Source of the DNA: Variovorax gossypii
Lineage (GTDB): Bacteria; Pseudomonadota; Gammaproteobacteria; Burkholderiales; Burkholderiaceae_C
Length of the DNA: 64,000 bases
Direction: 5' to 3'
NCBI RefSeq assembly: GCF_003965815.1
Contig: NZ_RXOE01000003.1
Location: 310,001 to 374,000 of the forward strand
Position 1 is the first letter of the stretch. Each line of letters opens with the position of its first letter. The notes beneath the pieces were generated by a model. The model was not told the DNA's origin. It did no database searches and saw nothing but the letters and a program-made list of their open reading frames with translations. Positions 13,171 to 45,203 of this stretch are shown here, piece by piece. The position numbers and the translations under genes were made by a program.

Positions 13171-13174
13171 CATC

Positions 13175-14080: not shown

Positions 14081-14134
14081 CTGAACAGGCCGCGCGACAG
14101 CGGCCGCCCCTTTTTTCTTTTCTTGGATTCGACA

Positions 14135-14866: not shown

Positions 14867-14869
14867 TCC

Positions 14870-16866: not shown

Positions 16867-16880
16867 CTTGGCGGTATTTG

Positions 16881-16914: not shown

Positions 16915-17016
16915 CATTGGGGCAGATGTCCTTTTCGGTCCGGTGCGATCTGCCACAGATCCCCCCTAGCCGAACGCCAAACGTGGCATCAATCATGGTA
17001 TTTTCAAGCCGATACC

Positions 17017-17927: not shown

Positions 17928-18242
17928 GCAACACGAACCAAAACGATATCGTTCTCGACATCCTTTTTCGCGTGCAAGACGCACTTGTTAAGGCAAAAGG
18001 CGAACTGACGCCCGAGTTGGTGAAGGGGGTGGAGGCGAGCGTCCGCGCCGATTGGGGCGGTGCGCGTGTTCATCGCGAAGCACCGTGGCGAGGGGCACAG
18101 CAACCGCAACAGTCGGATCATGAGAGATTACCTCGGCGGGGAGCGATTGAAGCTGCTTGCCCGTCGCTATGAGCTTTCGGAGCGCCAGGTTCTGCGGATC
18201 GTCAAGCGTCCCAGCGCCTTTGTCTCAAAATGGCTTCGCTGA
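17921..18242 (+). pseudogene. Mor-type phage regulator, frameshifted
   Basis: One frame gives MVSNTNQNDIVLDILF through VKGVEASVRADWGG; the next frame gives RVFIAKHRGEGHSNRN, then YLGGERLKLLARRYELSERQ. Together they read as one ~105-residue protein of the Mor transcription activator family (middle-operon activators of Mu-like phages), ending in a helix-turn-helix. The frames join at the TGGGGCGG run near 18053-18060 and need one base removed. This is either a real disabling insertion or a homopolymer sequencing error. Confidence 0.65.
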
Positions 18243-18410
18243 ACTCATGAATGAGGGGTGGCACTCGGCGTCTCGACTAGGCGCGCGAAAACTGGTGGAA
18301 ACCCCTCGTTGTGCGGGAAATATCGAATACACAATCTAAAGATGGCACTGTCATCCGTTGCGTTTGTTTAACGATGAGGCGTGAGTCCTTTTTCTAGTGA
18401 AGATTAAATA

Positions 18411-20204
18411 ATGAAAATTGTGGCGTTTCGAGTGACTAACTTTAGATCGATTGTTGATACGGGGCGCATTCAACTATCTGGTGACAACATTACGGCATTG
18501 GTCGGACAAAATGAATCGGGAAAGTCGGCGGTTCTAGACGCGTTGGCTCTTACTTTTACAGATTTGCATCCTTCTGTTGAGGATTTTAGGTATGGCGAAA
18601 AACCCCCAGCGGTTTTTCTTGAAACGCAGTCCTCTTCATCCGAGCTCGAAGGAATGCTTTCTGAAATTTCCAACGAGGCGCTACGGGCAAAGGTCGCGAA
18701 AAGATTAATTCCTCTGAATGGCGTGTTGCAGTGGCAATTCTTTGTTTATTCTGTTGATGAAGAGCAGCCTAGAATTACGCATGTATTTGATAATTTGCCG
18801 CTAGGTGATTTGGATGTTGAGGCGCGCGACGAGTTGGATGCTGTGGCGCTTGAAGAAGCTCGACTTGCATTGAAGGATGAAATTTCGAAATTCAGGAAAG
18901 CTATTTATAAATCTGCCCCGACGTTCGTTCCATTCGATGAGGAGTCTGGCTTATTGCCGAATCGAATCGATGTTTCGGCGAATGCCGTTCTTAAAGGCGC
19001 CGGCTCTGTTGCTGCCCTGAATTTCTTGTCTATTGCTGGGATTCAATTAAATACGCTTCTTGCTAGTGATACCAAAGGGCAAACCGCTTTGTTGAGGCGA
19101 GCAAATAAGAAGATTACAGACGATTTTCGAGCTTTCTGGAAACAGAATATTGGAGAGGTTAGCGGAATTGAATTGAGCTGTGCTGTGCATCAGTATCCGA
19201 CGGGAAGAGAAAAGCAAGGGCAGTCTTTTTTGGAGTTCTTAATTAGCGATGGAGATAATACGCTTCATCCCCGGCAAAGAAGCAAAGGGACTAGATGGTT
19301 CATCTCCTTCTTTCTTCAACTGCGCGCAGCCGCGGAGGCGGATTCAGATCACTTTTTTCTGCTCGATGAACCGGGTTCCAATCTTCATGAGCGAGCACAA
19401 ACGGATGTCATGGAGTTGGTGGAGAAAATCAGCTCCAAAGTTGGAGTCATTTACTCTACACACAGTCCCCATTTGATTCGTCATGATCGCTTGAATCGAG
19501 TTGTTGCGGTGGAACGCGATTCTGCGGAACCGGGCAATCCTACGAAGTTAATAGGCGCTCATGCACTTGGTGCGGCAAATATCGATACGCTCAGCCCAAT
19601 ATATGTTGCAATGGGCGTTTCTTTGGCGCGGCAAACTTCTATCAAGCAAAGAAATAACGTAATTCTTGAGGAATTGAGTGCTCAGTATTATTTGAGGGCA
19701 TTTTGGCTTTTGGCTAAAAGCACTCAAGAGGTGCAATTTCTTGCCGCAACTGGTGCTTCAAATATTCCCATGCTTGCAAATTTATTCTTGGGATGGGGGC
19801 TCGAATTTCTTGTTGTTGTGGATGACGAGGCAACAGGTCGAGGTGTTTTTAATCGTCTGAAGCGGGATATGTTTTTGGATGATTCGTCCTGGGCAAAAAA
19901 GAGAATGTATAAATTGGCAGGGTGTGATGGAATAGAAGATATTTTTGAGGCGGATGATTATAAAAATTATGTTGCGGCCGAAGCTGTGCTTGGCAAAGGG
20001 CAGCGAAATTCGGGGTGGGCAAAATCTCATGGGGCAGCCAAGGCAATTCATGCGTTCGAATTTCTTCGAAAAGTGGAGTCGGGGCTGATTGAGATGGAGA
20101 AACTGCAGGCGGGTACTCAAAAAAATATCGCGAAAACTGTAGAGGAAATAGCGGAGAGACTCTCGATGTTTGCAAAAGCGCCGCAGGTTGAACAGGCGTC
20201 TTAG
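18411..20204 (+). CDS. OLD-family ATPase/TOPRIM nuclease
   Basis: A 597-residue protein with an SMC-like AAA ATPase and a C-terminal TOPRIM-like nuclease region, the architecture of OLD (overcoming lysogenization defect) proteins. Walker A GQNESGKS is at residues 32-39; Walker B FFLLDEPGSNLHERAQ lies near residue 315, and the switch-like YSTHSPHLI near 345. TOPRIM candidates are the Glu pair in VILEELSAQYYLRAF (~415), LVVVDDEATG (~470) and IEDIFEADD (~508). It is visibly AT-rich against its neighbours, so it is foreign cargo. No UvrD-like helicase follows, so it resembles single-gene class 1 OLD rather than Gabija. A role in phage exclusion is inference. Confidence 0.83.
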   Translation: MKIVAFRVTNFRSIVDTGRIQLSGDNITALVGQNESGKSAVLDALALTFTDLHPSVEDFRYGEKPPAVFLETQSSSSELEGMLSEISNEALRAKVAKRLIPLNGVLQWQFFVYSVDEEQPRITHVFDNLPLGDLDVEARDELDAVALEEARLALKDEISKFRKAIYKSAPTFVPFDEESGLLPNRIDVSANAVLKGAGSVAALNFLSIAGIQLNTLLASDTKGQTALLRRANKKITDDFRAFWKQNIGEVSGIELSCAVHQYPTGREKQGQSFLEFLISDGDNTLHPRQRSKGTRWFISFFLQLRAAAEADSDHFFLLDEPGSNLHERAQTDVMELVEKISSKVGVIYSTHSPHLIRHDRLNRVVAVERDSAEPGNPTKLIGAHALGAANIDTLSPIYVAMGVSLARQTSIKQRNNVILEELSAQYYLRAFWLLAKSTQEVQFLAATGASNIPMLANLFLGWGLEFLVVVDDEATGRGVFNRLKRDMFLDDSSWAKKRMYKLAGCDGIEDIFEADDYKNYVAAEAVLGKGQRNSGWAKSHGAAKAIHAFEFLRKVESGLIEMEKLQAGTQKNIAKTVEEIAERLSMFAKAPQVEQAS

Positions 20205-20329
20205 TCTCGTTCGCGTTGAGATGCGTCCTGGATGGGGCCCACCAGGCTGGGGAATGGTGACACTCCATGCCTTGTTGATGTCGGCGTGCGTCTTCGATAG
20301 TCCGGTCAACACTGACCAAAGGCCCGACC

Positions 20330-20875
20330 GTGGCTATCGACGCTTTCAACACCGAACCTATTTCCATCATTCCCGGCGACAGCGTCAAATGGACGCGAAC
20401 GCTCGCCGACTATCCGCCCTCTGCAGGCTGGGCACTGAGCTACGAACTGCTCAACGCGCAGCACCGCTACGAAATCGCCGCAACGGCTAACGGCAACGCA
20501 CACCGCGTCGTCGTCTCTCCGCAGACTACGCAAACCTATGCGCCTGGCTCCTACGACTGGCGTGCCCGGGTCACGAATGCCGATGAGGTCTACACGGTCG
20601 CCACGGGGCGGCTGACGGTCACTCCGTCATTCGGCGCGGTGGCAGACATCCGCTCGCACGCGCGGCGCACGCTGGAGGCCATCGAGGCGGTTCTCGAAGG
20701 CCGGGCCACCAGCGCGACCGCCGAATACGAAATCAACGGCCGGCGCCTGAAGTACATCCCGCTCACCGAGTTGCACGCACTGCGCACGAAGTACCAGCGC
20801 GAGGTCGCGGCAGAGGAGGGCAAGAGCGGACCGCGAGGCGTATCGGGTCGCATCATGGTGAGGTTCGGCCAATGA
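20330..20875 (+). CDS. Phage gpW-like head-tail connector protein
   Basis: A 181-residue protein from a GTG start. The last ~75 residues (RTLEAIEAVLEGRATSATAE, then YEINGRRLKYIPLTELHALR) follow the pattern of lambda gpW, a small head-completion protein, and the gene sits directly before the portal gene as gpW does. The first ~105 residues form a separate beta-rich domain (SIIPGDSVKWTRTLADYPPS, GSYDWRARVTNADEVYTV). The stop overlaps the portal ATG by four bases. It seems intact, but its partners are missing. Confidence 0.65.
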   Translation: MAIDAFNTEPISIIPGDSVKWTRTLADYPPSAGWALSYELLNAQHRYEIAATANGNAHRVVVSPQTTQTYAPGSYDWRARVTNADEVYTVATGRLTVTPSFGAVADIRSHARRTLEAIEAVLEGRATSATAEYEINGRRLKYIPLTELHALRTKYQREVAAEEGKSGPRGVSGRIMVRFGQ

Positions 20876-22371
20876 AGACGCCCGCCTTCCTGCACCGCGT
20901 CTTCGGCGGCAAGTTCGCGGCCAAGAAGACACAGGTCCGCCGCTTCCAGGCGGCCCGCATTGATCGGCTCTCGGCCGACTGGATCGCGACCTATTCCAGC
21001 ATCAACGAAGAGCTGCGCGGCGACCTCGACCGGCTGCGCGCGCGTGGCCGCGAGCTGCGCAACAACAACGACTACGCGCGCAAGTTCTGCGGCATGGTCG
21101 AAACCAACATGGTCGGGCCGGCTGGCTTCGTCATGCAGGCACGCAGCGAGAACGCACCAGGCAAGGCCGACAAGCTCGCCAACGACGCCATAGAGGCCGC
21201 TTTCGTGCGCTGGCAGGCGGTGTGCGACGTGACCGGACGGCAGTCGCTGCGCGACATGTGCGAGACCCTTGTCGGTGGCTTGCCGAGCGATGGCGAGTTT
21301 CTGGTGCGGCTCGTGCGCGGGCCCGACGCTGGCAACGAGTTCAACTTCGCGCTGCAGCTCATCGACGTGGATCGCATCGATACCACGTTCAACGGAATCG
21401 AGCCATCGACGGGCAACACCGTCATCATGGGCGTGGAGGTCAACGCCTGGCGGCGAACCGTCGCGATCCACATCTTCGAGGCGCATCCGAACGATGGCCC
21501 GCGCACATCGCGCCGGCGCGTGCGCCTGCCGGCCGAGGACGTGATTCACGGCTTCAAGGTCGAGCGCGCCGAGCAGGTGCGCGGCATTCCGTGGATGGCG
21601 CCGGGCATGCTCAGCCTGCACCACCTGGGCGGCTTCATGCTGGCCGCGGTGCTGGCGGCCGAGCACGGCGCGAATCACTTCGGCTTCTTCACGCAGAACA
21701 ACGATGCGACCCCGGGCGTGTTGCCAGTGGGCCAGCACGAAGAGGGCGAAGGCGGTGAGGCCATCACCACGAGTCAGCCCGGCGTCTACGACACGTTGCC
21801 GCCTGGCTATGACTTCAAGCCGCACGAGAGCAAGTACCCGAACGAGGTCTTCGGTCCGTTCGTGAAGACGGCCCTGCAGCGTGTCGCGAGCGGCTGGCGG
21901 GTTTCGTATCACGCGCTCGCGAACGACCTCGAAGGCGTCAACTTCTTCAGCATCCGCAGCGGCACGCTCGATGAGCGCGACCGGTGGTCCTCGGATCAGC
22001 AGTGGTTCATCGACATCCTGCTCAAGCGCGTGCGCTCCGAATGGCTCGTGATGTCTCTGCTGTCTAACGCGATCACCATGCCCACCGGTAGCCCGCTGCC
22101 GGCGGCGAAAGTCGCGAAGTTCGCGCCGCACGATTGGCTCGGCCGTCGCTGGGAGTGGGTGGACCCGCTCAAGGACATGAACGCGCGCATTGCCGGCGTG
22201 GGTGCGGGGCTGGTGGCGCCGCAAGACCTGAGCGCGCAGATGGGCCGCGACTTCTACGACACCATGCTGAAGATCAAAGAGGCGCAAGACCTCGCGCAGC
22301 AGCTCGGCATCGTGCTGCCTGCGTACGCGGCGAGCTGGCCGGCGAGGCAGTGTGTTTGGCGTTCAAGGTGA
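20872..22371 (+). CDS. Lambda-family phage portal protein, altered C-terminus
   Basis: The portal ring is the DNA gate of the phage head. The 499-residue product matches the lambda gpB family: RELRNNNDYARKFCGMVETN, LVGGLPSDGEFLVRLVRG, IDVDRIDTTFNG, VIHGFKVERAEQVRGIPWMA, and YHALANDLEGVNFFSIRSG. It is full length to about residue 485 (QDLAQQLGIVLPAYA). The last ~12 residues (SWPARQCVWRSR) come from a deletion junction with an unrelated gene read out of frame. The scaffold/protease and capsid genes that should follow are gone. Confidence 0.88.
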   Translation: MKTPAFLHRVFGGKFAAKKTQVRRFQAARIDRLSADWIATYSSINEELRGDLDRLRARGRELRNNNDYARKFCGMVETNMVGPAGFVMQARSENAPGKADKLANDAIEAAFVRWQAVCDVTGRQSLRDMCETLVGGLPSDGEFLVRLVRGPDAGNEFNFALQLIDVDRIDTTFNGIEPSTGNTVIMGVEVNAWRRTVAIHIFEAHPNDGPRTSRRRVRLPAEDVIHGFKVERAEQVRGIPWMAPGMLSLHHLGGFMLAAVLAAEHGANHFGFFTQNNDATPGVLPVGQHEEGEGGEAITTSQPGVYDTLPPGYDFKPHESKYPNEVFGPFVKTALQRVASGWRVSYHALANDLEGVNFFSIRSGTLDERDRWSSDQQWFIDILLKRVRSEWLVMSLLSNAITMPTGSPLPAAKVAKFAPHDWLGRRWEWVDPLKDMNARIAGVGAGLVAPQDLSAQMGRDFYDTMLKIKEAQDLAQQLGIVLPAYAASWPARQCVWRSR

Positions 22372-22466
22372 GAAACACGCACGTCATCTTCAACAACTGC
22401 CACGAGGACAAGGGGCAGCGCAACGCGCGAACCTTCACGGGCAAGCTGACGAAGGCCCGGCAATGA
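22341..22466 (+). pseudogene. DUF72-like C-terminal fragment
   Basis: In the frame that differs from the portal, the sequence reads GEAVCLAFKVRNTHVIFNNC followed by HEDKGQRNARTF and ends TKARQ. The VxxxFNNxxxxxxxRNA pattern is that of the C-terminal end of DUF72 proteins. Only ~40 residues remain, fused to the portal end at ~22330-22345, so it is a scar of another deletion. Confidence 0.45.
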
Positions 22467-22763
22467 AGGTCGCATTGTTGAGCGGCGCGGCGCTCGATGA
22501 ATGGGGGGCGCGAGCGCTGGGGCGAGCCGCCCGGCGTCGCCTACTCTGAAGCATGGCCGGGCTTCGACCGGGTGCTAGATCGCGATGCAATCCAAGTCGC
22601 CCCGCTGCCCGGTAAGCGGTATCTGTGGTGTGCCATCGTGGTAGGTCGCCCTGGCGGACGGTTGCCTGAAGGGCGCGGCCCGTGGCTGGAGGGCGAGTCG
22701 CCGCCGGTGGCGGTTGCTCGCGCAACCGTAGCCGCTCGATATGGTTCGACGGTGGAGGCGTAA
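22463..22763 (+). pseudogene. DUF2591-like phage protein, frameshifted
   Basis: The ATG at 22463 starts MKVALLSGAALDEWGARALG; the next frame continues EPPGVAYSEAWPGFDR and ends AVARATVAARYGSTVEA. Joined, they follow the layout of DUF2591 phage proteins (opening SGxxLDxWxARAxG, closing AxxRxxVAxxYG). One extra G in the CTGGGGCG run at 22519-22522 breaks the frame. The function of the family is unknown. Confidence 0.5.
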
Positions 22764-22907
22764 AACCTTTTCGTGTGTCGCTGTGCAGCGGTGATGCACT
22801 GTCTAGTTTTACAGGGAACGCCTCGGTTTCGTATGTCTGACAACGGATAGATTTGGTTTACTCGGTGGCCAAGTTCGGCTCGCTTTGTCCCGGTCTTGTC
22901 CTGGTCG

Positions 22908-22934
22908 AAAAAAAGCCGTTGAATATCAACGGCT
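22908..22934 (-). terminator. Terminator after the tRNA-end fragment
   Basis: On the minus strand the stem AGCCGTTGATATTCAACGGCT is followed by seven T. It directly follows the tRNA-like 3' end, as in a normal tRNA gene. Confidence 0.8.
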
Positions 22935-22937
22935 TGT

Positions 22938-22965
22938 TGGTGCCTTCAACAGGAATCGAGCCTGT
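22938..22965 (-). repeat. Truncated tRNA 3' end, possible old attachment site
   Basis: Read leftward, ACAGGCTCGATTCCTGT forms a perfect T-arm (ACAGG/CCTGT, 7-base loop) and is followed by TGAAGGC, discriminator A and CCA. No anticodon arm or D-arm lies on the 5' side. The acceptor strand is not that of tRNA-Ser, so it marks recombination involving a different tRNA gene, perhaps tRNA-Leu (uncertain). Confidence 0.6.
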
Positions 22966-23032
22966 AAGATGAAGTAATTGATCCACGACAAAGGTTGATG
23001 CAATCTTAGCCCGATTCAGCAACCGAGCAATC

Positions 23033-24091
23033 ATGGAAAGTACAAAAACTCCTTCAACAGATGAACTGGCTGCCTGGTATCGAGCCGCTGAGCCACGCTT
23101 TAGAGCGTTGGCAGATAACGTCGCAGCCACTATTAATAGTTTGCTGAAAGAGCAAGGAGTTGCATATTTAACGGTATCGGCTCGGGTGAAGACTCTGGAA
23201 AGTCTTTTGGAGAAATTTTCACGAAAGCGTTACGATTCATTTGAAGATTTAACAGATTTTCTAGGCGTTAGGGTAATTGTTTACTTAGATTCTGAAATCC
23301 CGGTGGTTTGTCGACTTTTGGAGAAAGCATTCCATGCTCATCCCGAGCTGGGCGTCGACAAATCTGAGGAGCTTGCTGTTGATCAAATTGGTTACAGGTC
23401 GGTGCACTATATCTGTGACCTGGGGTTGAAGCGTCTCGAATTGCCAGAGCTGGCGCAGTACAAAGGGCTAAAGTTTGAAATTCAGATTAGAACGGTTCTT
23501 CAACATGCATGGGCGGAGATTGAACACGATAGAAGTTACAAGTTTTCTGGTGATTTGCCTCAAGCAATTCGGCGGCGATTGAATTTGCTCGCTGGGACAT
23601 TGGAGTTGGTTGATAGGGAGTTTTCTACGCTGGCTAAAGATCTAGATGAGCATGCGAAACAAAAAACCACAGAAGAACCGCTTGCGATAAATGATGCGGA
23701 GGAACTGAATCCGGAGATAGTCGGTCGATTTCTTGAGTCGATGCCGTTTGGTAAAAGCATTGATCCCGATAAAAGAGGATCGTCGCTTGTTTCGGCATTC
23801 GACGAGTTGGTAAACTTTGGGGTATCGAGCGTTGGGGATTTGCGAAAACTTCTCTCGCCCGAATTCTTGCTGAATATCAACCAAACGGCTCCAGGAACAA
23901 AGGTTGGAATTGTGAGGCGGGCAATGATGTTCAATGATATCGACAAATATCTTGCTATGTCTTACAAACGAAGTTTCGGTGGCCTAAGCAAAGCGACGCA
24001 GGAAATACTGCGCAAAAAGTACGGAGACGAGAAAATCAACGATGTGCTGAAAGTGATTCGGGAGTCGAGAAAAATTAATAGTGAGCCATGA
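23033..24091 (+). CDS. RelA/SpoT-domain nucleotide synthetase, island cargo
   Basis: A 352-residue protein with a stand-alone RelA/SpoT synthetase domain (~residues 20-210) and no HD hydrolase, TGS or ACT domain. Synthetase motifs look intact: RVKTLESLLEKFSRKR, DFLGVRVIVYL, GYRSVHYICDLG and EIQIRTVLQHAWAEIEHD followed by YK. The ~140-residue C-terminal part is helical and unrecognised. The gene is AT-rich like the OLD gene and lies next to the right repeat. Small synthetases on mobile elements can act in phage defence or as toxins (CapRel, FaRel). No antitoxin-sized neighbour is visible, so a fused self-inhibitory C-terminus is one possibility. The product could also modify tRNA rather than make (p)ppGpp. 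Confidence 0.82.
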   Translation: MESTKTPSTDELAAWYRAAEPRFRALADNVAATINSLLKEQGVAYLTVSARVKTLESLLEKFSRKRYDSFEDLTDFLGVRVIVYLDSEIPVVCRLLEKAFHAHPELGVDKSEELAVDQIGYRSVHYICDLGLKRLELPELAQYKGLKFEIQIRTVLQHAWAEIEHDRSYKFSGDLPQAIRRRLNLLAGTLELVDREFSTLAKDLDEHAKQKTTEEPLAINDAEELNPEIVGRFLESMPFGKSIDPDKRGSSLVSAFDELVNFGVSSVGDLRKLLSPEFLLNINQTAPGTKVGIVRRAMMFNDIDKYLAMSYKRSFGGLSKATQEILRKKYGDEKINDVLKVIRESRKINSEP

Positions 24092-34518: not shown

Positions 34519-35075
34519 ACTGCTCCCCGCACGCCGGGGCGGTGATCCCGGCACCTCCCATGTTGATGGGAGCAGTAGCGATGTCTTTCGTGCCAGCTGC
34601 TGACAAATGTGAACTGGCACACATCCGCGATCCGAAAGCGAATGCCAAGACCTACTGCAATCCGTAGTATTCATTTTGTTTCAAAAACGTCCTACGGAGC
34701 TTGCACGTGATGACCTGCATACCCTCGTTCTTCCGAACGTACGAGCCGCTCGATGCGGTTCGTGGGCATGCCGCACGAGCGCGTGGCCCCGTCACATCGA
34801 AGGCCACGATCATGAAGCCCGACTCCTAGTGTTCTCCTTGCAGTGATGCGCATCGCGGCGATCCGCCGCGAACCGTGCGACTGCCTTCAGCGACCCGATA
34901 GCTGCTTGCCGATGGCCCTTGCGAGGGCTCGTGCATGGCGGCTCGCGTTCGTCCGCTGACTTTCGGATTTCGATTTTTATCTCGCGCCGCTGCGCGAGAT
35001 GGAGAGCCGTTGCCGCGACAGAAGCGGCCGGTCCTCCCTTACAGGGTTCGAGAAGATTTTTGGATCGAGGATGCA
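34519..35075. other. Long regulatory-looking spacer before the EAL gene
   Basis: 557 bases with no convincing gene. They hold a 7-bp hairpin CTCCCAT-GTTG-ATGGGAG at 34555-34572, a spaced inverted repeat GTGCCAG...CTGGCAC at 34590-34620, and a CRP-like site at 34608-34623. The sequence is less GC-rich around 34640-34690. The length suggests the control region of the surface-fibre locus. Confidence 0.5.
34608..34623. promoter_or_regulatory. Candidate CRP/FNR-like binding site
   Basis: TGTGAACTGGCACACA matches TGTGA-N6-TCACA at nine of ten defined positions. It overlaps the inverted repeat GTGCCAG/CTGGCAC. Two Crp/Fnr-type regulators are encoded at the other end of the locus, which gives it weight, but a chance match is possible. 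Confidence 0.35.
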
Positions 35076-36485
35076 ATGGCTGCTATCTCAGCACTGACCG
35101 CCTGGCCCTCAGGTGCGCACCGGCCCGCCGTGCGGGCCCCGCGCGCTTCGACGGGGGTGTGTCTGCACGACTCGCGCACCGAGCCTGTCGCGAGCGTCGC
35201 GCATGCTTTCGCGGCGCCCGTGGGCCGTGCGGCGACGCGCAGGGCCTGCGCCTTCGTGTTCGTCGCGAACCTTCCGCTCCTCGCGGAAGCGTACGGACAG
35301 GATTTCGCATCGGCCGCGAGCCTGGAGATCCAGCGCCGGCTCTGCGCCAACTTCGTCGTGTCTGCGTCGTCCGACATGGCCAGGCTGCGGGACGATTGCT
35401 TCCTGCTCTGGCACAACGAAGCCTTCGAATGCGCGATCTTCGAAGGCCGTGCGCCGGGCGAGTTTCCCCGCACGATGCGGCGCGCGAGCCGTCCCATCGA
35501 GGCCTTGCTCGCGGTGCTCGGCGCGGAGCCCGTGCGCGCCGGCGGCATCGCCGCGCTGGTGCAGCTGCACGCGGACTGGATCGACGTATGCCCGCCCGAG
35601 CAACTCGGCGCCTCCGAGATCGAACTGGCACTGTGGACCGCGCAGCCCTTTCCCGAGGCGCACGAGACCCGCGCCGACGGCTGGCGCCAGCTCTACCGGG
35701 CCGACATGGACATGGCCGTGCGCCTGAGCGAGGCCACGCGCGGCGAGGAGCTGACGTTCTCGTGGCGGCCGGTCGTGCAACCGGGCAGCGCCGCGACCGT
35801 GCTCTACCGCGAAGGCCGCACGCGCATCGCATCGGGCCGGGGCGAACAGGGCCTGCTGGAGTCCGACGTGTTCATGCCCTGCCTGCAGCGGCTGGGCCTC
35901 ACGCGCGCGTTCGACCGCACCGTCATGCGGCATGCCGTCGCCGCATTGCGGATGCAGCCTTCCGCGCACATCGGCGTGAGCATCTCGGCGCAGGGCGTGC
36001 GCGTCGATCACTGGTGGGCCTCGCTGCTCGCGGTGCTCGACAAGGAGCCCGCGCTGGCTTCGCGGCTGGTGATAGAGATCGTCGACAGCGCGGCGCTGCC
36101 CGACTTCGAGGCCGCACGGGACTTCTGCGTGCAGCTGCAGCTGCGCGGCTGCCGCATCGCCATCCGCGATTTCGGCAGCGGTGCCGACAACCTCGCGGCC
36201 GTCCAAGCCTGCAGGCCCGACATCGTCAAGCTCGACGCCGCCCTGCTGCGCCGCGCGCGTGAAGGCGCGTTCGGCCGCGAGTGCCTGCGCGACATGCTGT
36301 CGCTGTGCACGCATCTCGCGCCGCACGTGGTCGTCGACGGCATCGAGCGCGACGACGACCTGCACATCGCGTCGCAGGCCGGCGCGCAGTGGATGCAGGG
36401 CTTCGGCGTGCGAGGCGCGGAGCGGCATGCGCGCATCGGCTCGCCCGCTGGCGGCGACGCCGGTGGCAGCGCGGAGGCTGAATGA
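35076..36485 (+). CDS. Degenerate EAL-domain protein
   Basis: A 469-residue protein; residues ~225-455 align with EAL (c-di-GMP phosphodiesterase) domains by motif order. Key catalytic positions are changed: the ExL motif position reads LYREG, DDFGTG is RDFGSG (first Asp to Arg), and the ExVE position reads VDGIERDDD. The structural elements IGVSISAQGVR, LVIEIVDSA, DIVKLDAALL and QWMQGFGV remain. It is therefore probably inactive and may act as a c-di-GMP receptor or scaffold. The N-terminal ~200 residues are unrecognised, possibly a GGDEF remnant. GAGG lies five bases before the chosen ATG at 35076. It leads the CsgG-like locus. Confidence 0.82.
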   Translation: MAAISALTAWPSGAHRPAVRAPRASTGVCLHDSRTEPVASVAHAFAAPVGRAATRRACAFVFVANLPLLAEAYGQDFASAASLEIQRRLCANFVVSASSDMARLRDDCFLLWHNEAFECAIFEGRAPGEFPRTMRRASRPIEALLAVLGAEPVRAGGIAALVQLHADWIDVCPPEQLGASEIELALWTAQPFPEAHETRADGWRQLYRADMDMAVRLSEATRGEELTFSWRPVVQPGSAATVLYREGRTRIASGRGEQGLLESDVFMPCLQRLGLTRAFDRTVMRHAVAALRMQPSAHIGVSISAQGVRVDHWWASLLAVLDKEPALASRLVIEIVDSAALPDFEAARDFCVQLQLRGCRIAIRDFGSGADNLAAVQACRPDIVKLDAALLRRAREGAFGRECLRDMLSLCTHLAPHVVVDGIERDDDLHIASQAGAQWMQGFGVRGAERHARIGSPAGGDAGGSAEAE

Positions 36486-36772
36486 CCATGAGCCTCCTGA
36501 ACACCGACATCCAGCTGCGCCTCGCGCGCCTGAGCACCGACCTTCTGCTGCTGCAGCGTGCCGTCCAGGAGCTGATGCTCGAGTGCACCCCGCAGCCTCC
36601 CGGCATGAGCGAAAGCGACCTGATCGCCGCGGCGCAGTACCGCGCGCTGGAGGCCGCGCTGCATGCGCCCGACAGACCGGCCGCGCCAGCCACCCAGGAG
36701 GACGCCGAGCTGCTCGTGTGGCCGGGCTTCACCGAGCCGGTTCCCATGCGAAGGGCGGCGATGCGCGCCTGA
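36482..36772 (+). CDS. Small protein of unknown function
   Basis: A 96-residue product whose ATG overlaps the EAL gene stop by four bases (ATGA), so it is translated with it. The first half is a Leu-rich helix (LRLARLSTDLLLLQRAVQEL); the rest is Pro/Ala-rich. No signal peptide. It could be a partner of the EAL protein. Not recognised. Confidence 0.65.
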   Translation: MTMSLLNTDIQLRLARLSTDLLLLQRAVQELMLECTPQPPGMSESDLIAAAQYRALEAALHAPDRPAAPATQEDAELLVWPGFTEPVPMRRAAMRA

Positions 36773-36824: not shown

Positions 36825-37367
36825 ATGCTTACTCAAATCACCAGGGTTTCCAGGACCACGCGCGCCGCGCTGTTCGGCCTGCTGGCCGCCACCGGCGCAT
36901 GCGCGCTGGCCAACAACGTCGGAGAGAACGCCGCGTGGCAGTTCCAGACTTCCGCCGACAAGGCCAACCAGGCGGCGGTGCAGGACATGATCCAGCGCAA
37001 GAAGGCCGGCTCGTACGGCGCGGCCAACTACACCACCAACAACTACATCGGCAAGCAATACAACTGCGACGTCACCTCGACCGCGCAGGGCAACCAGGGC
37101 ACCAACAGCACCACCGCCAACTCGCCCGGCACCAGCGGCGCGTCGGCCAACTCCACCGGCAACTCGAGCACCGGCGTCGGCGGCACGGGCACGGTGAGCA
37201 CCGGCCAGGCCAACAGCGGCACGGTCGGCTCGGCGGTGATCGGCTCCACCACCAGCAACGTGCAGGGCTGGTCGAGCCAGGCCCTGAACTCCAACCAGAC
37301 CAACACCGGCAGCCAGAGCGCAAGCATCAGCGGCAGCTCGGCCTGCGCCTTCGGCGCGCTCAACTGA
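36825..37367 (+). CDS. Secreted Asn/Ser/Thr/Gly-rich protein, HfaA- or curlin-like candidate
   Basis: A 180-residue exported protein with a signal peptide cleaved near residue 29 (ALA-NN). The mature part begins with a charged helix (QTSADKANQAAVQDMIQRKK) and then ~130 residues of N/S/T/G-rich sequence with recurring NxxGxNxxT and SGxSxNSTGN patterns, like amyloid subunits. Two Cys (YNCDV, SSACAF) may form a disulfide. It precedes a CsgG/HfaB-like secretion gene by 30 bases. I infer a CsgG-exported fibre or anchor subunit; homology to holdfast protein HfaA is only suggested by context. Confidence 0.7.
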   Translation: MLTQITRVSRTTRAALFGLLAATGACALANNVGENAAWQFQTSADKANQAAVQDMIQRKKAGSYGAANYTTNNYIGKQYNCDVTSTAQGNQGTNSTTANSPGTSGASANSTGNSSTGVGGTGTVSTGQANSGTVGSAVIGSTTSNVQGWSSQALNSNQTNTGSQSASISGSSACAFGALN

Positions 37368-37396: not shown

Positions 37397-38800
37397 ATGA
37401 TCACATTCAAGTCGATCCGCGCGTTGCCGCGCGGAAAAGCCGCGTCGCGCGGACTGGCCGCGGCGGCCGCCGTCATGAGTCTGGCCGGCTGCGTCACCGC
37501 GCCGCAGCAGCAGATGGCGCCGAAGGAAGCGCCCGTGGTGCTCGGCCCCGCCGTGCGCCAGAACGTCACGCCCATGGAGGCGGTTCTCGCCTGCTTCGGC
37601 GACCACGTGGCCGCCACCCAGCGCCCGCCCTTCGTCATCACCGTGGGCGACGTGAAGGACTACACCGGCAAGTACAGCATCAACGAAGGCAACGCCATCA
37701 CGCAGGGCGGCGCGCTGATGGTGTATTCGGCGCTCGGCAAGCTCGGCGGCGCGGTGCAGGTGGCCGAGCGCTTCGACCCGGTCATCGCGGAACGTGAACT
37801 GGGCTATGCCGATCGCCGCCAGCTCGGCGACGGCCGTACGCACCAGCTCGGCGGCCCCAGCGGCGGCCAGGCCGTGCCGTGGCTGCCGTACTTCGGCGGC
37901 ACCATCAACAAGTCCGACTACTTCATCGTCGGCGGCATCACCGAGCTCAACTACAACATCAACTCGGGCGGTGCCGAGATCGGCGTGAATCAGGTGGGCA
38001 TCAAGGCGCGCACCTTCACCCAGTCGGTGGGCGTCGACCTGCGCATCGTCGACACCAAGACGCTGATGATCGTGAAGACCGTGAGCCTCACGAAGCAGTT
38101 CAACGGCTACGAAGTCGGCTTCAACGTCTTCCGCTTCTTCGGCAGCAAGCTCTACGACATCGACGTCGGCGCCAAGGGCCAGGAGCCCGTGCAGATGGGC
38201 GTGCGCGCCGCGCTGGAAGAGGGCGTGGTGCGCCTGGTGGCCGCGGTCGCCAAGGTCGACCCCAACCCCTGCCTGGGCATGCGCCTGACTGAGGACCTGC
38301 GCGTCGCGCCCGCCGAGGAGTTGCGCAAGGTGGCCAACCCGCTCGTCGATTCGGCCGGCGCGGTGGTGCAGCAGGGCGAGGCCGTCAACGCGGCCAGCCA
38401 GACCGGCGCGAGCCTGACGGGCTCGAGCGTGCAGATCCCCTTCGAGTTCGGCGCGGCCGCGCTCACGGGCGGCACGCTGAACCTTCTCGACCAGATCGCG
38501 GCGGCCGCCGCCAAGGCGCCCACCGAGGTCGTGCTGGTCGCGCGCGACACCGAGAACTGGGACGCCGGCAAGCGCGACCTGCTGACCGACCAGCGCATCG
38601 GCGTGGTCACGACGGCGCTCGCGTCGCGCGGCCTGGCGCCCGGCGGCATCAGCGTCACATGGCGCCCGGACAAGGCGGATACGTCGATTCATCGCGACGG
38701 CCCCGGCCTGCAGGAGATCGCAAAGCTCCGTGTCCAGGGTGCGGTGAGGGGTGGACCGGCCCGTCCGGTCCGTGAGGGGAACGCAACCGAAGGGAAGTAA
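37397..38800 (+). CDS. CsgG/HfaB-family lipoprotein with OmpA-like domain
   Basis: A 467-residue outer-membrane lipoprotein. The lipobox LAGC puts the lipidated Cys at residue 32. Residues ~50-300 follow the CsgG/HfaB fold (FVITVGDVKDYTGKYSINEG, DYFIVGGITELNYNINSGGA, VDLRIVDTKTLMIVKTVSLT, AALEEGVVRLVAAVAK). CsgG forms a nonameric pore that exports unfolded curli subunits; HfaB is its holdfast-anchoring relative. Residues ~345-445 (IPFEFGAAALTGGTLNLLDQ, then LLTDQRIGVVTTALASRGL) resemble an OmpA peptidoglycan-binding domain, an extra module absent from E. coli CsgG. The flanking genes encode its likely substrates. Confidence 0.85.
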   Translation: MITFKSIRALPRGKAASRGLAAAAAVMSLAGCVTAPQQQMAPKEAPVVLGPAVRQNVTPMEAVLACFGDHVAATQRPPFVITVGDVKDYTGKYSINEGNAITQGGALMVYSALGKLGGAVQVAERFDPVIAERELGYADRRQLGDGRTHQLGGPSGGQAVPWLPYFGGTINKSDYFIVGGITELNYNINSGGAEIGVNQVGIKARTFTQSVGVDLRIVDTKTLMIVKTVSLTKQFNGYEVGFNVFRFFGSKLYDIDVGAKGQEPVQMGVRAALEEGVVRLVAAVAKVDPNPCLGMRLTEDLRVAPAEELRKVANPLVDSAGAVVQQGEAVNAASQTGASLTGSSVQIPFEFGAAALTGGTLNLLDQIAAAAAKAPTEVVLVARDTENWDAGKRDLLTDQRIGVVTTALASRGLAPGGISVTWRPDKADTSIHRDGPGLQEIAKLRVQGAVRGGPARPVREGNATEGK

Positions 38801-38898: not shown

Positions 38899-41800
38899 AT
38901 GCAGAAGAATCGCAAGCACTCGGGCCGCCGCGTCAACGGCGCACCGCTCAACAGCATCGGCATGGCCGTGCTGGCCACGCTCGTGGCCAGCGGCGCGCAG
39001 GCCGCCGAAACGGTCGTCACGCCCGTGGCCGCCAACACCACTGCCTACCAGAGCGTGCAGTCGGTGCAGGACAAGACGCTGCCGGTGACCGCCACGGCCG
39101 CCGGCACCACCATCGACATCACGACGGCCGGCCCGCAGACCGGCAACAGCAACACGGTCACGCAGAACGCGGTGAAGGCAAGCGCCACGGGCAACGCCTT
39201 CGTCAACGCGGTCGACCTCTCGCTGACCGGCGGCACGGGCGCGACGCCCGCCGAAGGCGCGGCCTCGCTCGGCGTGCAGACCAACAGCGGCGTCGTTTCC
39301 AGCCTCGCCACTGGCAACACGGTGAAGGTCGATCTCGACGGCTTCTCGAGCGGCGGTGCCGCCAACACCAGCAACACGATCGCGGCGAGCACCACGCTCA
39401 ACAGCGGCTCGTCGACCATCTCGGGCGCGGTGCCCGTCGACTATGCCTCGACCAATCCGGGCTCGGTCTCGCTGGCCTACACGCCCGCCGGCGGCAGCGT
39501 GACGGCCCAGGGCAGCCTGGTCGTCAACTCCGTGCAGCAGGCCACCGGCGCGGCTTCGTCCGCGTCGGCCAGCGGCAACAACCTGACGCTCACGCTGACG
39601 GCACCCGGCACCAACGCGGTCGACGCCGCACCGGCGCTCGACGGCAACACTGTCTCCGCGACGCTCAAGGGCAACGCGGCCAACAGCACGGCCAGCATCC
39701 AGGCCGGCGGCGCGCCGGCCTTCACCGGCTCGGCCGTCGTCGCGAACCAGCAGCTGAACCAGTCGGCCACGCCGGTGACGCACACGGCCTCGGCCAGCGG
39801 CAACGCCATCATCGCTTCCATCGGCAGCGACACCGCCGGCAGCACCAACACGCTGCAAGGCGCGCTGTCCGTGCAGGGCAACACCATCTCCAGCAGCGCC
39901 ACCGGCAACGAAGCCCTCGGCGCCACCACCGGCACGGCCGGCAATCGCATCGTGCTGGCCGACGGCGTCTCGGTCGCCGGTTCGGGCGGCGCCACCTCCA
40001 ACACCGGCGTCTACAACGCGGGCAGCCTGTCGAGCACGGTCGCGGCCGATCTGGTCGTGTCGAACAGCCAGGGCAACGTGGGCGTCTCGCTCAGCGCGGC
40101 CACGCAGGGCGCGGGCATCGTCGCGGGCGTGCAGTCGGTCGACGGCGGTACCGTCACCGTCGCGAACAACGCGACCACCGCATCGGCGACCGGCAATGCC
40201 GCGTCGAGCGCGATCCTCAGCGGCAAGGACGCCGCCTCGTTCACCGCCACCGCGGCGCTGGCGAACCAGCAGAGCAACTACAACGGCGGCGTGAACGCCG
40301 CCGCGGGCCTGAGCGCGATCGCCGCGATCACCGGCGGCGAGGACGGCACCAACAACGCCAGCGCAGTCTCGGTGACGGGCAACCGCACCGCCGCGACGGC
40401 CTACGGCAGCAGCGCGAGCCAGAGCCTCGCGCTCCAGGCGAACGCACTGCCGCTGTCCGGCGCCAATGCCACGCTCGCCGGCGGCAGCCTGCCCGACGGG
40501 AACGTCACGGCCGCGGGCGCGGCCACGGTGACGAACCTGCAGGGCAACTACTCCGCCCCCGTCAGCGCCCAGACCTTGGGCTCCGTCATCGGCCTGATGG
40601 CCGATTCGCGCGGCACCGGCGGCGACACCATCCACGGCAGCACTTTCACCGTGGGCGGCAACACGCAGGAAGCCGTGGCCGTGAGCAACGGCGCCAACAA
40701 CGCGCTGTCGCTGACCGGCACCACCGTCGGCGCGGGCGCCGGCGTGGCGAGCGTCCAGGTCGTGGACCAGGGCTCGCCGGTCAGCGCGGAGCTGACGAGC
40801 TCGGTGGCCGGCGTCTATCTCGGCACGCACACCACCGACAGCTCCGTCGCGCTGACGAACAACCTGCAGCGCGCGGTGGCGTACGGCAACTCGGGCGCGA
40901 ACAGCCTGAACGTGTCGGCCAACAGCGCGAGCGTGCCGCTGTCGGAGACACCTGCCTCGGTGGCGACGCCCGCGGCCGGCACGGCCAGCGTCAATGCCGC
41001 CTACGGCGTGCTGAGCAACCAGTCGGTGTCCGGTGACGTCTCGGCAGTTGCGGACGGCCGCGGTGTCGGGCCGGTCGGCTCGCAGACCGTGCTGATCGAA
41101 GGCAACGTCACCCGCAGCACCGTCTCGAACCAGGGCAACGCCTTGGTCGGCGCCGCCTACGGCAACGATGTCTCCAACGCCGCCAAGCTGGCGCTGGGCA
41201 CCGGCGCCACAGTGGCCGGCGCGGCATCGGTGGGCAATGTCACCAGCGTGCAGAACGTGAACGGCGCGGCCATCACCGCATCGGTGCCGGGCGGCAACGT
41301 GGTCTCCACTGCGATCGAGGACAACGTCGTGGCATCGACGGTCGCCACCTCCGGCAACCAGCTGCAGGCCCTGGCCTACGGCAACCGCGCGAGCGGCAAT
41401 ACCCTCGACGTGTCCGGCAATACGCTGGCCACCGTCACGGAACAGCCGCGCGCCGTGAGCGTCGGCGCCACCGCGACGACCGATGCGGCCTTCAGCGTGC
41501 AGAGCGTGCAGAACGGTTCGGGCAGCCTGAGCGCATCGCTGCGCAACGGCGTCCTGGGCACGGACGCTTCGCAGATCCGCACGCAGGTTGGCGGCAACGT
41601 CACCGGCTCCAGCGTGGCGTCGAACGGCAACAGCGCCAGCGCCGCCGCCACGAGCAACAGCGCCGTCAACGGCCTGACGCTCGCGGGCAACAGCCTGTCG
41701 ACCTCCAGCGCGGTGCAGAACGTGCAGACGACCAGTGCGGCCATCGAGGCACTGGCGGGCCAGGCCGGCACGCCGGGAACGCCCGCGTCGCCATCGGCGC

Positions 41801-43608
41801 CCTTCAGCTACAGCGCGCACGTGATCGACACCGACGTGCTCGGCGGCAACACCGTCGGCAACACCACGACGATCACCAGCGGCGTGCTGGGCGTGCAGAT
41901 CGCCAGCCTCACGCAGGCCCAGATCAACTACCTGACCGCCAACGGCTGGAGCGTCGGCAGCGGCAACACGGCCGGCATGCTGACCGCGCCCGCGTCCATC
42001 CTGGGCCCGGTCTCGGTCGCGACCTACAGCCAGCTGCAGACTGGCTCCGCCGTGCCGTTCGATGCCACCATCCCGGGCACTCCGGCCGTGGCCGCGGTTC
42101 CGAACCGTGGCGGCGTGACGGTGGCCGTGGCCGGCAACGTCACCGGCTCGCAGCTCGCCGTGACCGGCAACAGCAGCAGCGCCGCCGTCACCGGCAACAG
42201 CGCCACCAACAGCGCTTCGGTCACCGGCAACACGATCGCCTCGGGCGGCGCGACCACGGCCAGCGCGAGCGGCCTGGTCGGCGGAACGACCGGTGCGCAG
42301 GCCGACCACACGGTGTCGAACGTGCAGCAGGTCACGGGCGTGCCCGCGCTGTCGACCAGCGTCTACGGCACCTTCGCCGTCGACACTGCCGCGGGCGCGG
42401 CCATCTCGGGTTCGGCGCTGAGCGTCTCCGACAACAGCCAGCGCGGCACCGCCGTGGCGAACACCGCGGCCAACAGCCTGAGCCTGAGCGGCACCAACGT
42501 CGCGAGCACGTCGGCGCTGTCGTCGGCGCAGTCGGGCGCCGCGGCTGTCTCGGCGGCTTCGGACCTCGAGCTGTACGCGCCGGGCGCTGTCTCGGCATCG
42601 TCGGTGGACCTGTCGCGCAACAAGAACACGTCGCTGGGCGTGATCAACGACGTGACCAACACCCTGAGCGTGAAGGCCTCCAACGTGACGCCGGCCGGCG
42701 CCACCGGCAACGCGGTGCTGGTGCAAGGCACGGCCACCGGCGACCACGTGCTGAACAATGCCCAGCTGGCGACGACCTCGGTGAGCAGCACCGCGACCAC
42801 GCGCCTGTACAACCAGGACCAGACGGCCGCGGCCACGACGGGCCTGGTCAACAGCACCGCGACCATCAGCGGCAACAGCACGACCGCCGAAGCCTCGGCC
42901 AACCGTGCCGACAACAGCGTGGCGCTCAACGGCACCGCGGTGCAGGGCGCGAGCGCGGGCCTGAACAACCTGCAGCTCAGCAGCGCGGCAGTGACGGCAA
43001 GCGCCTCGACCTCGGCCACGTTCAAGCTCGAAGGCACCAGCCCGGCCACGCCGGCGGCGCTGAACAGCGGCATCACGATCGACGGCAACAGCACCACGGC
43101 GCTGGCACGCGGCAACGCAGCCACCAACGCGCTGAACCTGTCGGCGGGCAGCGGCTATGCCGCCGCCGCGGCGGTCGCGGGCAGCACCGCGGGCGGCACC
43201 ACGCAGGCCACGGCGGCATTGCTCAACACGCAGGGCAACAGCGGCAACGTGACGGCCAGCGCCACGGGCACGTACCAGGTCGCGCTCAACGGCGTGAGCG
43301 CGGGCACGGCTCCCGGCCTGACGAACGGCACCGCCGCGCTGACGGACAACACCGTCGCTGCGCAGGCCTACGGCAACACGGCGACCAACGCCGTGACCGT
43401 CGCGGCCACGGTGGCGAACCGTCCGACGGTGGCGGTGGCGAACTACCAGACCAACAGCGGTGCCATCGTCGCGACTGCGAGCGGCGTGAACTACGGCACG
43501 GGCATCACCGGCGCCACCACCGGCAGCACGCTGCGCGCGGCCGGCAACCAGGTGACGGCGACCGCGGTGGGCAACTCCGCCGTGTCGACCATCGCTTCGG
43601 CGCGCTGA
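38899..43608 (+). CDS. Giant secreted repeat protein, curlin/HfaD-like adhesin candidate
   Basis: A 1569-residue exported protein. After a positively charged N-region, a signal peptide (GMAVLATLVASGAQA) is cleaved near residue 35. The rest is built of degenerate ~70-residue units, roughly 20 by eye. Each pairs a half like AxVxNxQxNxGxVxA with a half like VxGNxxxAxAxGNxAxNxLxL. The alternating N/Q ladders and GNxA steps recall curlin repeats and predict a beta-solenoid or amyloid. Composition is Ala/Ser/Thr/Asn/Gly/Val; Cys is absent, and there are no LPxTG, autotransporter or RTX motifs. It directly follows the CsgG/HfaB-like gene, so export through that pore is likely. A terminator follows. 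Confidence 0.82.
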   Translation: MQKNRKHSGRRVNGAPLNSIGMAVLATLVASGAQAAETVVTPVAANTTAYQSVQSVQDKTLPVTATAAGTTIDITTAGPQTGNSNTVTQNAVKASATGNAFVNAVDLSLTGGTGATPAEGAASLGVQTNSGVVSSLATGNTVKVDLDGFSSGGAANTSNTIAASTTLNSGSSTISGAVPVDYASTNPGSVSLAYTPAGGSVTAQGSLVVNSVQQATGAASSASASGNNLTLTLTAPGTNAVDAAPALDGNTVSATLKGNAANSTASIQAGGAPAFTGSAVVANQQLNQSATPVTHTASASGNAIIASIGSDTAGSTNTLQGALSVQGNTISSSATGNEALGATTGTAGNRIVLADGVSVAGSGGATSNTGVYNAGSLSSTVAADLVVSNSQGNVGVSLSAATQGAGIVAGVQSVDGGTVTVANNATTASATGNAASSAILSGKDAASFTATAALANQQSNYNGGVNAAAGLSAIAAITGGEDGTNNASAVSVTGNRTAATAYGSSASQSLALQANALPLSGANATLAGGSLPDGNVTAAGAATVTNLQGNYSAPVSAQTLGSVIGLMADSRGTGGDTIHGSTFTVGGNTQEAVAVSNGANNALSLTGTTVGAGAGVASVQVVDQGSPVSAELTSSVAGVYLGTHTTDSSVALTNNLQRAVAYGNSGANSLNVSANSASVPLSETPASVATPAAGTASVNAAYGVLSNQSVSGDVSAVADGRGVGPVGSQTVLIEGNVTRSTVSNQGNALVGAAYGNDVSNAAKLALGTGATVAGAASVGNVTSVQNVNGAAITASVPGGNVVSTAIEDNVVASTVATSGNQLQALAYGNRASGNTLDVSGNTLATVTEQPRAVSVGATATTDAAFSVQSVQNGSGSLSASLRNGVLGTDASQIRTQVGGNVTGSSVASNGNSASAAATSNSAVNGLTLAGNSLSTSSAVQNVQTTSAAIEALAGQAGTPGTPASPSAPFSYSAHVIDTDVLGGNTVGNTTTITSGVLGVQIASLTQAQINYLTANGWSVGSGNTAGMLTAPASILGPVSVATYSQLQTGSAVPFDATIPGTPAVAAVPNRGGVTVAVAGNVTGSQLAVTGNSSSAAVTGNSATNSASVTGNTIASGGATTASASGLVGGTTGAQADHTVSNVQQVTGVPALSTSVYGTFAVDTAAGAAISGSALSVSDNSQRGTAVANTAANSLSLSGTNVASTSALSSAQSGAAAVSAASDLELYAPGAVSASSVDLSRNKNTSLGVINDVTNTLSVKASNVTPAGATGNAVLVQGTATGDHVLNNAQLATTSVSSTATTRLYNQDQTAAATTGLVNSTATISGNSTTAEASANRADNSVALNGTAVQGASAGLNNLQLSSAAVTASASTSATFKLEGTSPATPAALNSGITIDGNSTTALARGNAATNALNLSAGSGYAAAAAVAGSTAGGTTQATAALLNTQGNSGNVTASATGTYQVALNGVSAGTAPGLTNGTAALTDNTVAAQAYGNTATNAVTVAATVANRPTVAVANYQTNSGAIVATASGVNYGTGITGATTGSTLRAAGNQVTATAVGNSAVSTIASAR

Positions 43609-43707: not shown

Positions 43708-44493
43708 ATGTACCTGCATCCCCTCATTGCCAATGTGCCTCCGGCAGAGCGCGAGGCGCTCGTCCAGAGCTGCGAGCTGCGTTCCTTCAGGCGCAACGAG
43801 ACGGTGCTCGCCGCCGATACCTGGACCGACCGGATCTATTGCGTGGCCAGCGGCCTGCTGCGCGTCGTCGTCCACGGCAAGGGCAGCGCGCAAGGCACCG
43901 ACGTCACCACCGACTTCATCCGGCAGGACGATTTCTTCATGGGGCCGTCCCTTGCGCAGGACGGCTACCAGGCCACGCAGACGCTGATCGCGGCGCTGCC
44001 TTCGGCCGTCTATCTGGTGCCGGTGGCCGCCATGCGGCGGCTGTGCGCCGCGCATCCCGAAGTGGCCATCGGCCTGCTCGGGCTCGCGATGAAGCGCATG
44101 GCCGTGGTCAGGGGCCAGCTGCGCCGCATCTCGGCACTGTCGGCCGAAGACCTGGTGAGCCGCGTGCTGCACCAGCTCACGCTGCTCGCGCCGGCGAGCG
44201 CGGGCGGATACGACAAGCGCATCACCCAGTCGGTGATCGCCTCCTACTCGGGCCTTTCGCGCGAGGTGGTCAACAAGACCATGCGCGCGATGGAGAACCG
44301 CGGCCTGGTTCGCAGGGACGAAGACGGCGTGCACGTGTCGCCCGACTTCGCCGCCACCGACTTCGGCGAGCTGCGGCCGGCCGAGCCCGGCCTTTCCGGC
44401 GCTGCGGTGCAGCAGCCGGATGGCCCGATGCTGCCGCCGCAGTTGTTCGATTCGCTGCGCATGCGCGGGGAGCGCGACTCCGGAAACGACTGA
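43708..44493 (+). CDS. Crp/Fnr-family regulator, copy 1
   Basis: A 261-residue regulator: an N-terminal cyclic-nucleotide-binding-like domain (LRSFRRNETVLAADTWTDRI, YCVASGLLRVVV) and a C-terminal winged helix (RITQSVIASYSGLSREVVNK, then RAMENRGLVRRDEDGVHV). It lacks the FNR N-terminal Cys cluster and the clear cAMP-contact RS motif, so the ligand is unknown. A ~35-residue tail after the HTH (PDGPMLPPQLFDSLRMRG) is missing from copy 2. It is probably linked to control of the adjacent fibre locus. Confidence 0.88.
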   Translation: MYLHPLIANVPPAEREALVQSCELRSFRRNETVLAADTWTDRIYCVASGLLRVVVHGKGSAQGTDVTTDFIRQDDFFMGPSLAQDGYQATQTLIAALPSAVYLVPVAAMRRLCAAHPEVAIGLLGLAMKRMAVVRGQLRRISALSAEDLVSRVLHQLTLLAPASAGGYDKRITQSVIASYSGLSREVVNKTMRAMENRGLVRRDEDGVHVSPDFAATDFGELRPAEPGLSGAAVQQPDGPMLPPQLFDSLRMRGERDSGND

Positions 44494-44546: not shown

Positions 44547-45203
44547 ATGTATCTGCACCCCCTGATGGCGGGACTTCCGCCGGCGGAACGAGAGGCGCTC
44601 GCCGAATGCAGCAGGCCTCGTTCCTACAAGCGAAACGAAGTCCTGCTGGCGGCAGGCGATACGACCGACCAGATCTATTGCGTGGCCAGCGGCCTGCTGC
44701 GCGTGGTCACGCCGGGCCACGCCGAAGGCTCCGAGATGACGACGGAGCTCATCGGTCCGAACGACTTCTTCTTCGATCTCTCGATCCGGGAAGACCGCTA
44801 CCGGACGAAGCAGACGCTGATCGCCACCTTGCCTTCGTCGGTGTTCCTCGTACCCATCGCGAAGATGCGCGGCCTCTGCGTGCGTCGTCCCGAAGTGGCG
44901 CTGGGCCTGCTCGGGCTCACGATGAAGCGCATGAACGTGCTGCGCGACCAGTTCCGCCGCATCTCCGTGCTTCCCGCCGAAGACCTGGTGCTGCGCGTGC
45001 TGCATGAACTCACCCGCCTCGCACCGATCGGCCCGGGCGGATACGACAAGCGCATCACGCAGTCGGTGATCGCCTCGTACTCCGGGCTCTCGCGGGAGAT
45101 GGTCAACAAGATCATGCGCGCCATGGAAATCCGCGGGCTGGTGCGTCGCGACGAAGACGGCGTGCATGTGGCCGAGGATTTCGTCGCTACCGACTTTGCG
45201 TAG
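44547..45203 (+). CDS. Crp/Fnr-family regulator, copy 2
   Basis: A 218-residue paralogue of the preceding gene; both start MYLHPL and share IYCVASGLLRVV and GGYDKRITQSVIASYSGLSR almost unchanged. The sensor half differs (SIREDRYRTKQTLIATLPSS), so the two probably respond to different signals but bind similar DNA sites. It is a tandem duplicate with 53 bases between the genes. The ATG at 44547 aligns with the start of copy 1. Confidence 0.88.
   Translation: MYLHPLMAGLPPAEREALAECSRPRSYKRNEVLLAAGDTTDQIYCVASGLLRVVTPGHAEGSEMTTELIGPNDFFFDLSIREDRYRTKQTLIATLPSSVFLVPIAKMRGLCVRRPEVALGLLGLTMKRMNVLRDQFRRISVLPAEDLVLRVLHELTRLAPIGPGGYDKRITQSVIASYSGLSREMVNKIMRAMEIRGLVRRDEDGVHVAEDFVATDFA

Follow-up and report, generated by a model that had tools for sequence, protein, structure and literature searches.

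What kind of protein is encoded behind a CsgG-like pore gene in Variovorax gossypii, given that its chain is 1569 residues long and consists largely of repeats? The known cargo of CsgG-type pores comprises small amyloid subunits and, in Caulobacter, the holdfast anchor (PMC6707917). Here we report on a stretch of 64,000 nucleotides of V. gossypii (contig NZ_RXOE01000003.1, positions 310,001 to 374,000; hereafter the window), in which this very large repeat protein (hereafter the giant) lies in a set of genes on one strand. A preliminary description, based on the letters of the window alone, had proposed about 20 curlin-like units forming a giant single-chain amyloid or beta-solenoid. We read the giant as an enlarged surface protein in the HfaD position of an export and anchoring locus of the HfaA-HfaB-HfaD kind, with adhesion or the anchoring of polysaccharide as its most likely role, and assign this reading a probability of about 0.6. 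It is probably a very large adhesive protein of the cell surface rather than a true curlin.

Repeat units and predicted fold of the giant

The open reading frame (ORF) of the giant begins with ATG, with AAAGGA 6-11 bases upstream of the start, and encodes a protein of 19% Ala, 13% Ser, 13% Thr, 12% Gly, 10% Val and 8.5% Asn; the preliminary description had given its coordinates, strand and length exactly and had correctly described it as Cys-free and rich in Ala, Ser, Thr and Asn. Residues 1-35, which the N-termini of the giants of relatives resemble, are presumably a Sec-type signal peptide. The ratio of nonsynonymous to synonymous substitution rates (dN/dS) of the giant was 0.28 to 0.42 against four relatives.

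The repeat was defined with a hidden Markov model (HMM) seeded with 15 units of the window giant itself and iterated on 42 relatives. The window giant contains 18 such units, which cover 72% of the chain at a median start-to-start spacing of 78 residues (interquartile range 72-86), close to the 20 units of about 70 residues described before. At more than 5 bits, the model recovered 19.4 units per protein in the 42 relatives vs a mean of 0.048 in 126 shuffled proteins; six shuffled domains exceeded 8 bits, and the best shuffled domain across the iterations reached 26.0 bits. Placement by hand yielded 19 Q anchors in the window giant, with one 200-residue gap at 940-1140. The period of the units is loose: plain N/Q autocorrelation of the window giant is weak (z 2.4 at offset 71 and 4.2 at offset 9, among 199 offsets) because the spacing of the units varies.

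The unit has the consensus AV.N.Q.ntGaVtAtatg - variable loop - StvsVsGNt.sA.AtGNsAtNtLsltA. Across the 795 units compared, the Q is nearly invariant, and the Asn of the first and second GN is present in 99% and 92%, respectively. The two motifs named in the preliminary description are real but rarer or looser than written: strict NxQxN occurs 6 times in the window giant (shuffled mean 0.47) and strict GNxxxAxAxGNxAxN once (shuffled mean 0.00), with five occurrences of a relaxed form, and [VIL]x[NS]xQ occurs 17 times (shuffled mean 2.66). Identity among the units of the window giant averages 35%. The units of two other giants (L004 and L009; 90% and 66%) pair one to one with those of the window giant in the same order, so that the array is old and its register is maintained among near relatives; in L010, L031 and L042 (54%, 48% and 47%), the order is lost partly or wholly.

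For the last six units, the structure predicted by AlphaFold is all-beta and confident, with a predicted local distance difference test score (pLDDT) of 88.8. A Foldseek search of the PDB gave rows with E values of 0.23 or more, mostly beta-helix enzymes, tailspikes and adhesins, and we take these resemblances of the predicted model as a common fold. The beta-helix of SufB-SufC-SufD, an intracellular iron-sulfur scaffold, is 4% identical to the giant and has the arrangement alone in common with it.

Pore family, curli and the holdfast anchor

The gene in front of the giant, already recognized as CsgG-like in the preliminary description, matches Pfam CsgG (E 1.3e-18, 67.5 bits, above the cut-off of 20.8) and the sequence of the solved CsgG structure (E 5.7e-10). 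Among the NCBIfam models, its match is far better to holdfast_HfaB (NF037935, an equivalog; E 3.1e-58, 197 bits, below the cut-off of 300) than to CsgG (E 5.5e-11). We take its LAGC motif to be a lipobox. Searching with the pore protein, an approach limited to close relatives, yielded 52 loci, so that 54 were examined together with the window and a second copy in the same genome. In 42 of them the pore gene is followed by a giant longer than 1000 residues and in 4 by a giant in pieces; in the remaining 8, the sequence ends 0-722 bases past the pore gene. The giant, whole or in pieces, therefore comes next wherever the sequence past the pore suffices. Unsplit giants have 1268-2792 residues and 14 to 31 units.

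The C-terminal part of the pore resembles OmpA: Pfam OmpA was matched at E<=1 by 18 of 20 pore family members (best 1.8e-10), and a profile of this part matched solved OmpA at 8.8e-5; the window pore by itself remained under the cut-off (E 0.14). This part is not required everywhere, since the pore of a Pseudotabrizicola locus (L054 9884-15601), which is 307 residues long and has no room for it, also precedes a giant.

The curlin identity of the giant, unlike its repeats and its CsgG-like neighbour, did not hold, and we rejected it. Neither the curlin repeat (Curlin_rpt, PF07012) nor CsgE or CsgF was matched at E<=1 in the genome of V. gossypii, which is 86% complete, so that these absences are not final; PF07012 is likewise absent from the families listed for 36 fragments. 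The unit is about three times as long as a curlin unit, with a spacing of 72-86 residues vs 23 +/- 5 in CsgA (PMC10192328). We therefore consider it unlikely that the locus is a true curli variant, in which the giant would be a very long CsgA-like amyloid subunit polymerizing end to end and the small protein encoded before the pore a CsgB-like nucleator. What the giant locus has in common with curli are a pore of the CsgG family, N/Q positions and a predicted beta fold: in the unit, the second arch (N.h.A.A-xG-N.A.N.L) resembles the curlin scheme N-x-psi-x-psi-x-Q / xGxx (PMC10192328), and the structural comparison with the giant model contained a weak row for CsgA (8c50). Many repeats per chain are also found in CsgA proteins with up to 62 repeats (PMC10192328) and in four very large Shewanella proteins with regularly spaced curli-like repeats (PMC3521004), but both carry the curlin repeat, which the giant does not match.

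The comparison with the holdfast anchor is closer. HfaB brings both HfaA and HfaD of Caulobacter to the cell surface, HfaD being dependent on it, and these two proteins hold the holdfast; which part tethers the sugar is described as open (PMC6707917). Both loci have the order small protein, HfaB pore and Asn-rich surface protein, and HfaD contains stretches of V.N.Q.N.G.V.A ... A.A.GN.A like those of the giant. Caulobacteraceae HfaD has 407-492 residues (n=30), far fewer than the giants, and its units have a median of 47 residues (picked by motif) vs a spacing of about 70-85. The HfaB proteins (27 found in 30 loci) have 337-411 residues, whereas the window pore has 467 and an OmpA-like end. 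The small protein of the window represents a two-Cys family different from Caulobacter HfaA.

NCBIfam HfaD (NF037936) had no match in the V. gossypii genome and, in 11 related genomes, just two matches, both below the cut-off (a frame of 149 residues at E 0.017 and one of 155 residues at E 0.39); searched directly against the 42 giants, the HfaD HMM gave none at E<=10. Profile comparison of whole giants with HfaD scored 31.2 over 16 columns vs a maximum of 16.5 in 15 shuffles, and hhalign of the giant unit with HfaD scored 19.0 over 18 columns vs a maximum of 13.3 in 100 shuffles, at a probability of 3.7%. We prefer the latter, unbiased test to an earlier one of the unit (maximum 9.1 in 100 shuffles), which was biased by HfaD units picked by motif. 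A unit scan at the sequence level was ambiguous: the mean best score was 17.1 for HfaD, 9.8 for shuffled and 11.6 for reversed proteins, but single proteins of the two control sets scored as high as 21.4 (shuffled) and 22.7 (reversed). The motif common to the giant and HfaD stands above the controls but is weak, and is no more than suggestive of homology.

The HfaB-family pore, the lack of a match to the curlin and HfaD models, the weak HfaD motif and the precedent in Caulobacter lead us to place the giant among the HfaB-dependent surface proteins. Its mode of action is probably that of HfaD or of a curli protein, with export through a pore of the CsgG family and folding outside the cell as a beta-solenoid. 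We infer the following course. Both the giant and its small two-Cys partner would enter the periplasm via Sec, and the HfaB/CsgG-type lipoprotein, possibly tied to peptidoglycan by its OmpA-like end, would pass both, unfolded, across the outer membrane. Outside, the roughly 18 units of a chain would form one long beta-solenoid in which N, Q and Ala positions stack unit upon unit, resulting in a stiff single-chain adhesive rod or in an anchor for surface polysaccharide, much as HfaD and HfaA are supposed to act in the Caulobacter holdfast. With single chains of 1300-2800 residues, the capacity of a CsgG-type pore for long chains could be tested, and the giant would offer a confident model for a protein in the HfaD position. 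Among the open-access papers found for HfaB, HfaD, holdfast, CsgG and Variovorax, none dealt with a giant of this kind in its title or abstract.

The small protein could be recovered by its motif WxF[QED][TS] in 43 of the 51 loci scanned, each time with exactly two Cys. It matched no Pfam or NCBIfam family, and AlphaFold gave no usable model (pLDDT 37.9); its alignment with Caulobacteraceae HfaA was limited to the signal peptide (22.7 vs a maximum of 18.8 in 10 shuffles). Small unfolded chains are the known cargo of CsgG, and the pore might export this protein only, with the giant taking another route or staying periplasmic. We regard this as quite improbable, as the giant adjoins the pore in the loci with enough sequence and a Pfam scan of six proteins of the locus revealed no other secretion gene. 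The dependence of HfaD on HfaB (PMC6707917) also argues against it.

Distribution and possible spread of the locus

Pore loci were found in Variovorax, Xenophilus, Polaromonas, Ramlibacter, Limnohabitans, Caenimonas and Alcaligenaceae, and further in sphingomonads, Caulobacteraceae bins, Mesorhizobium and others; the nearest pore, 96% identical to the window copy, is from a Variovorax. The gene is present in 22 of 100 genomes of the genus, nine of which have two full copies. At the level of the order, a strong match was obtained in V. gossypii and one other of 300 genomes, with weak matches in 8 more, and within the family, a profile of the last six units had matches at E<=1e-10 in 4 of 299 genomes. 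V. gossypii itself has two loci, on contigs C13 (window) and C8; the second copy lies near a chaperone-usher pilus set (L055 436-1866 and L056 8070-9965, by eye), presumably of the Csu/spore-coat-U kind.

In the pore tree, for which the program warned of long branches, sphingomonad and Caulobacteraceae copies form one group (35 rows, support 100/99) with those of Variovorax and its neighbours; 12 other Burkholderiales rows stand apart, with weak support for their own fork (85/66). A 293-kb plasmid of Variovorax paradoxus VAI-C carries the whole module (L091 6357-17749), with genes for an EAL protein, the small protein, the pore, the giant, a Crp protein and a GGDEF-EAL protein together. The grouping and the plasmid provide a hint of horizontal spread.

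The VAI-C giant (1566 residues, 18 units) is annotated as S-layer family. That the giant forms a surface sheet or passive coat, neither adhesin nor polysaccharide anchor, seems unlikely to us: the label comes from annotation alone, the Pfam scans contained no S-layer family, a pore gene in just 22 of 100 genomes of the genus would be odd for a main coat, and the linkage to regulators (below) better suits an inducible part. It is possible, and we propose it tentatively with somewhat more doubt than belief, that the locus represents a second, non-curlin class of surface fibre exported by CsgG/HfaB, in which the solenoid is pre-linked in one chain of 14-31 units rather than polymerized from small subunits, the pore is usually fused to an OmpA-like peptidoglycan-binding part, a degenerate receptor of cyclic di-GMP (c-di-GMP) reads the operon, and the module, sometimes carried by large plasmids, spreads between beta- and alphaproteobacteria.

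Two Caulobacteraceae bins (L035 and L036) have the pore and the small protein, with a giant seen in L035 and a sequence that ends too early in L036; neither genome matches NCBIfam HfaD, which was matched in 52 of the 80 Caulobacteraceae genomes searched and not in 28. HfaB-like genes on other plasmids have different neighbours: the next gene has 669 bases in Vibrio, with an 890-residue hypothetical protein 3.8 kb on, and 471 bases in Loktanella, and CsgE and CsgF are annotated in Caballeronia. Weak HfaB matches lie in csg-like sets (G356 and G147) and in a short HfaA/B/D-like set (G092), as judged by eye.

In Xenophilus E41 (L027 and L028, one strain; 11444-16405), an in-frame stop divides the gene of the giant; the stop was observed in L027, L028 shows the same ORFs, and the larger piece was counted as the giant. 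In Variovorax sp. E3 (L006; 11513-16204), it is spread over several frames, by assembly error or decay. Further large Asn-rich ORFs, possibly extra surface proteins, follow the giant in L038 (16193-21266) and L033 (16732-21141); those of 1074 and 1469 residues, respectively, had no Pfam match at E<=0.01, and a third of 577 residues runs off L038.

Neighbouring genes and other features of the window

The genes of the locus follow each other on one strand in the order EAL, 96-residue ORF, small protein, pore, giant and two Crp-like genes (Table 1).

Table 1. Positions of the giant, its parts and the linked genes in the window
Feature	Position	Strand	Remarks
EAL-domain protein	34935..36485	+	516 aa; Pfam EAL 2.4e-38
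96-aa ORF	36482..36772	+	overlaps EAL gene by 4 bases
Small secreted partner, hfaA position	36825..37367	+	180 aa; two Cys in mature part
HfaB/CsgG-family lipoprotein pore	37397..38800	+	467 aa; LAGC as presumed lipobox
OmpA-like C-terminal part of pore	38441..38671	+	Pfam OmpA in family members
Giant repeat protein	38899..43608	+	1569 aa; Cys 0
Presumed Sec-type signal peptide of giant	38899..39003	+	residues 1-35; site between AQA and AE
18 repeat units	39052..43596	+	unit HMM; residues 52-1566, with no unit at 936-1065
Crp/Fnr-type regulator	43708..44493	+	Pfam cNMP_binding 2.1e-9, HTH_Crp_2 8.9e-9
Second, similar Crp/Fnr-type regulator	44547..45203	+	likeness judged by eye

The EAL protein has a homologue linked with the pore gene in 17 of the 53 loci (six of them sphingomonad); in L023 it lies behind the giant, in the other 16 upstream. 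The motif columns of the window protein read EGRTR, RDFG and DGIE. Sphingomonad copies have kept DDFG and EGVET in 6 of 6 cases and EAL itself in 3 of 6, whereas DDFG is altered in the window protein and in all 8 other non-sphingomonad copies compared (L007, L008 and L028 were left out). With the catalytic residues and motif roles that we assume for EAL domains, these changes would fit a degenerate protein that in Variovorax is perhaps a c-di-GMP receptor rather than an enzyme. In 8 of the 53 loci, a Crp-like gene begins no more than 0.7 kb behind the giant. The linkage of the degenerate EAL protein and of the Crp-like regulators suggests that c-di-GMP and another small signal govern production of the giant, which would connect c-di-GMP with an uncharacterised Variovorax surface protein. 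An ORF like the 96-residue one, which matched no Pfam or NCBIfam family above cut-off, is present in 6 of 53 loci, exclusively in Variovorax.

Elsewhere in the window (16770-24091), a tRNA-Ser gene is followed by low-GC stretches with the end of a terminase large subunit, a lambda-type portal, an AAA_15/AAA_21 ATPase and a RelA/SpoT-domain protein. We read this region as a likely island or remnant of a prophage, and it may carry defence genes.
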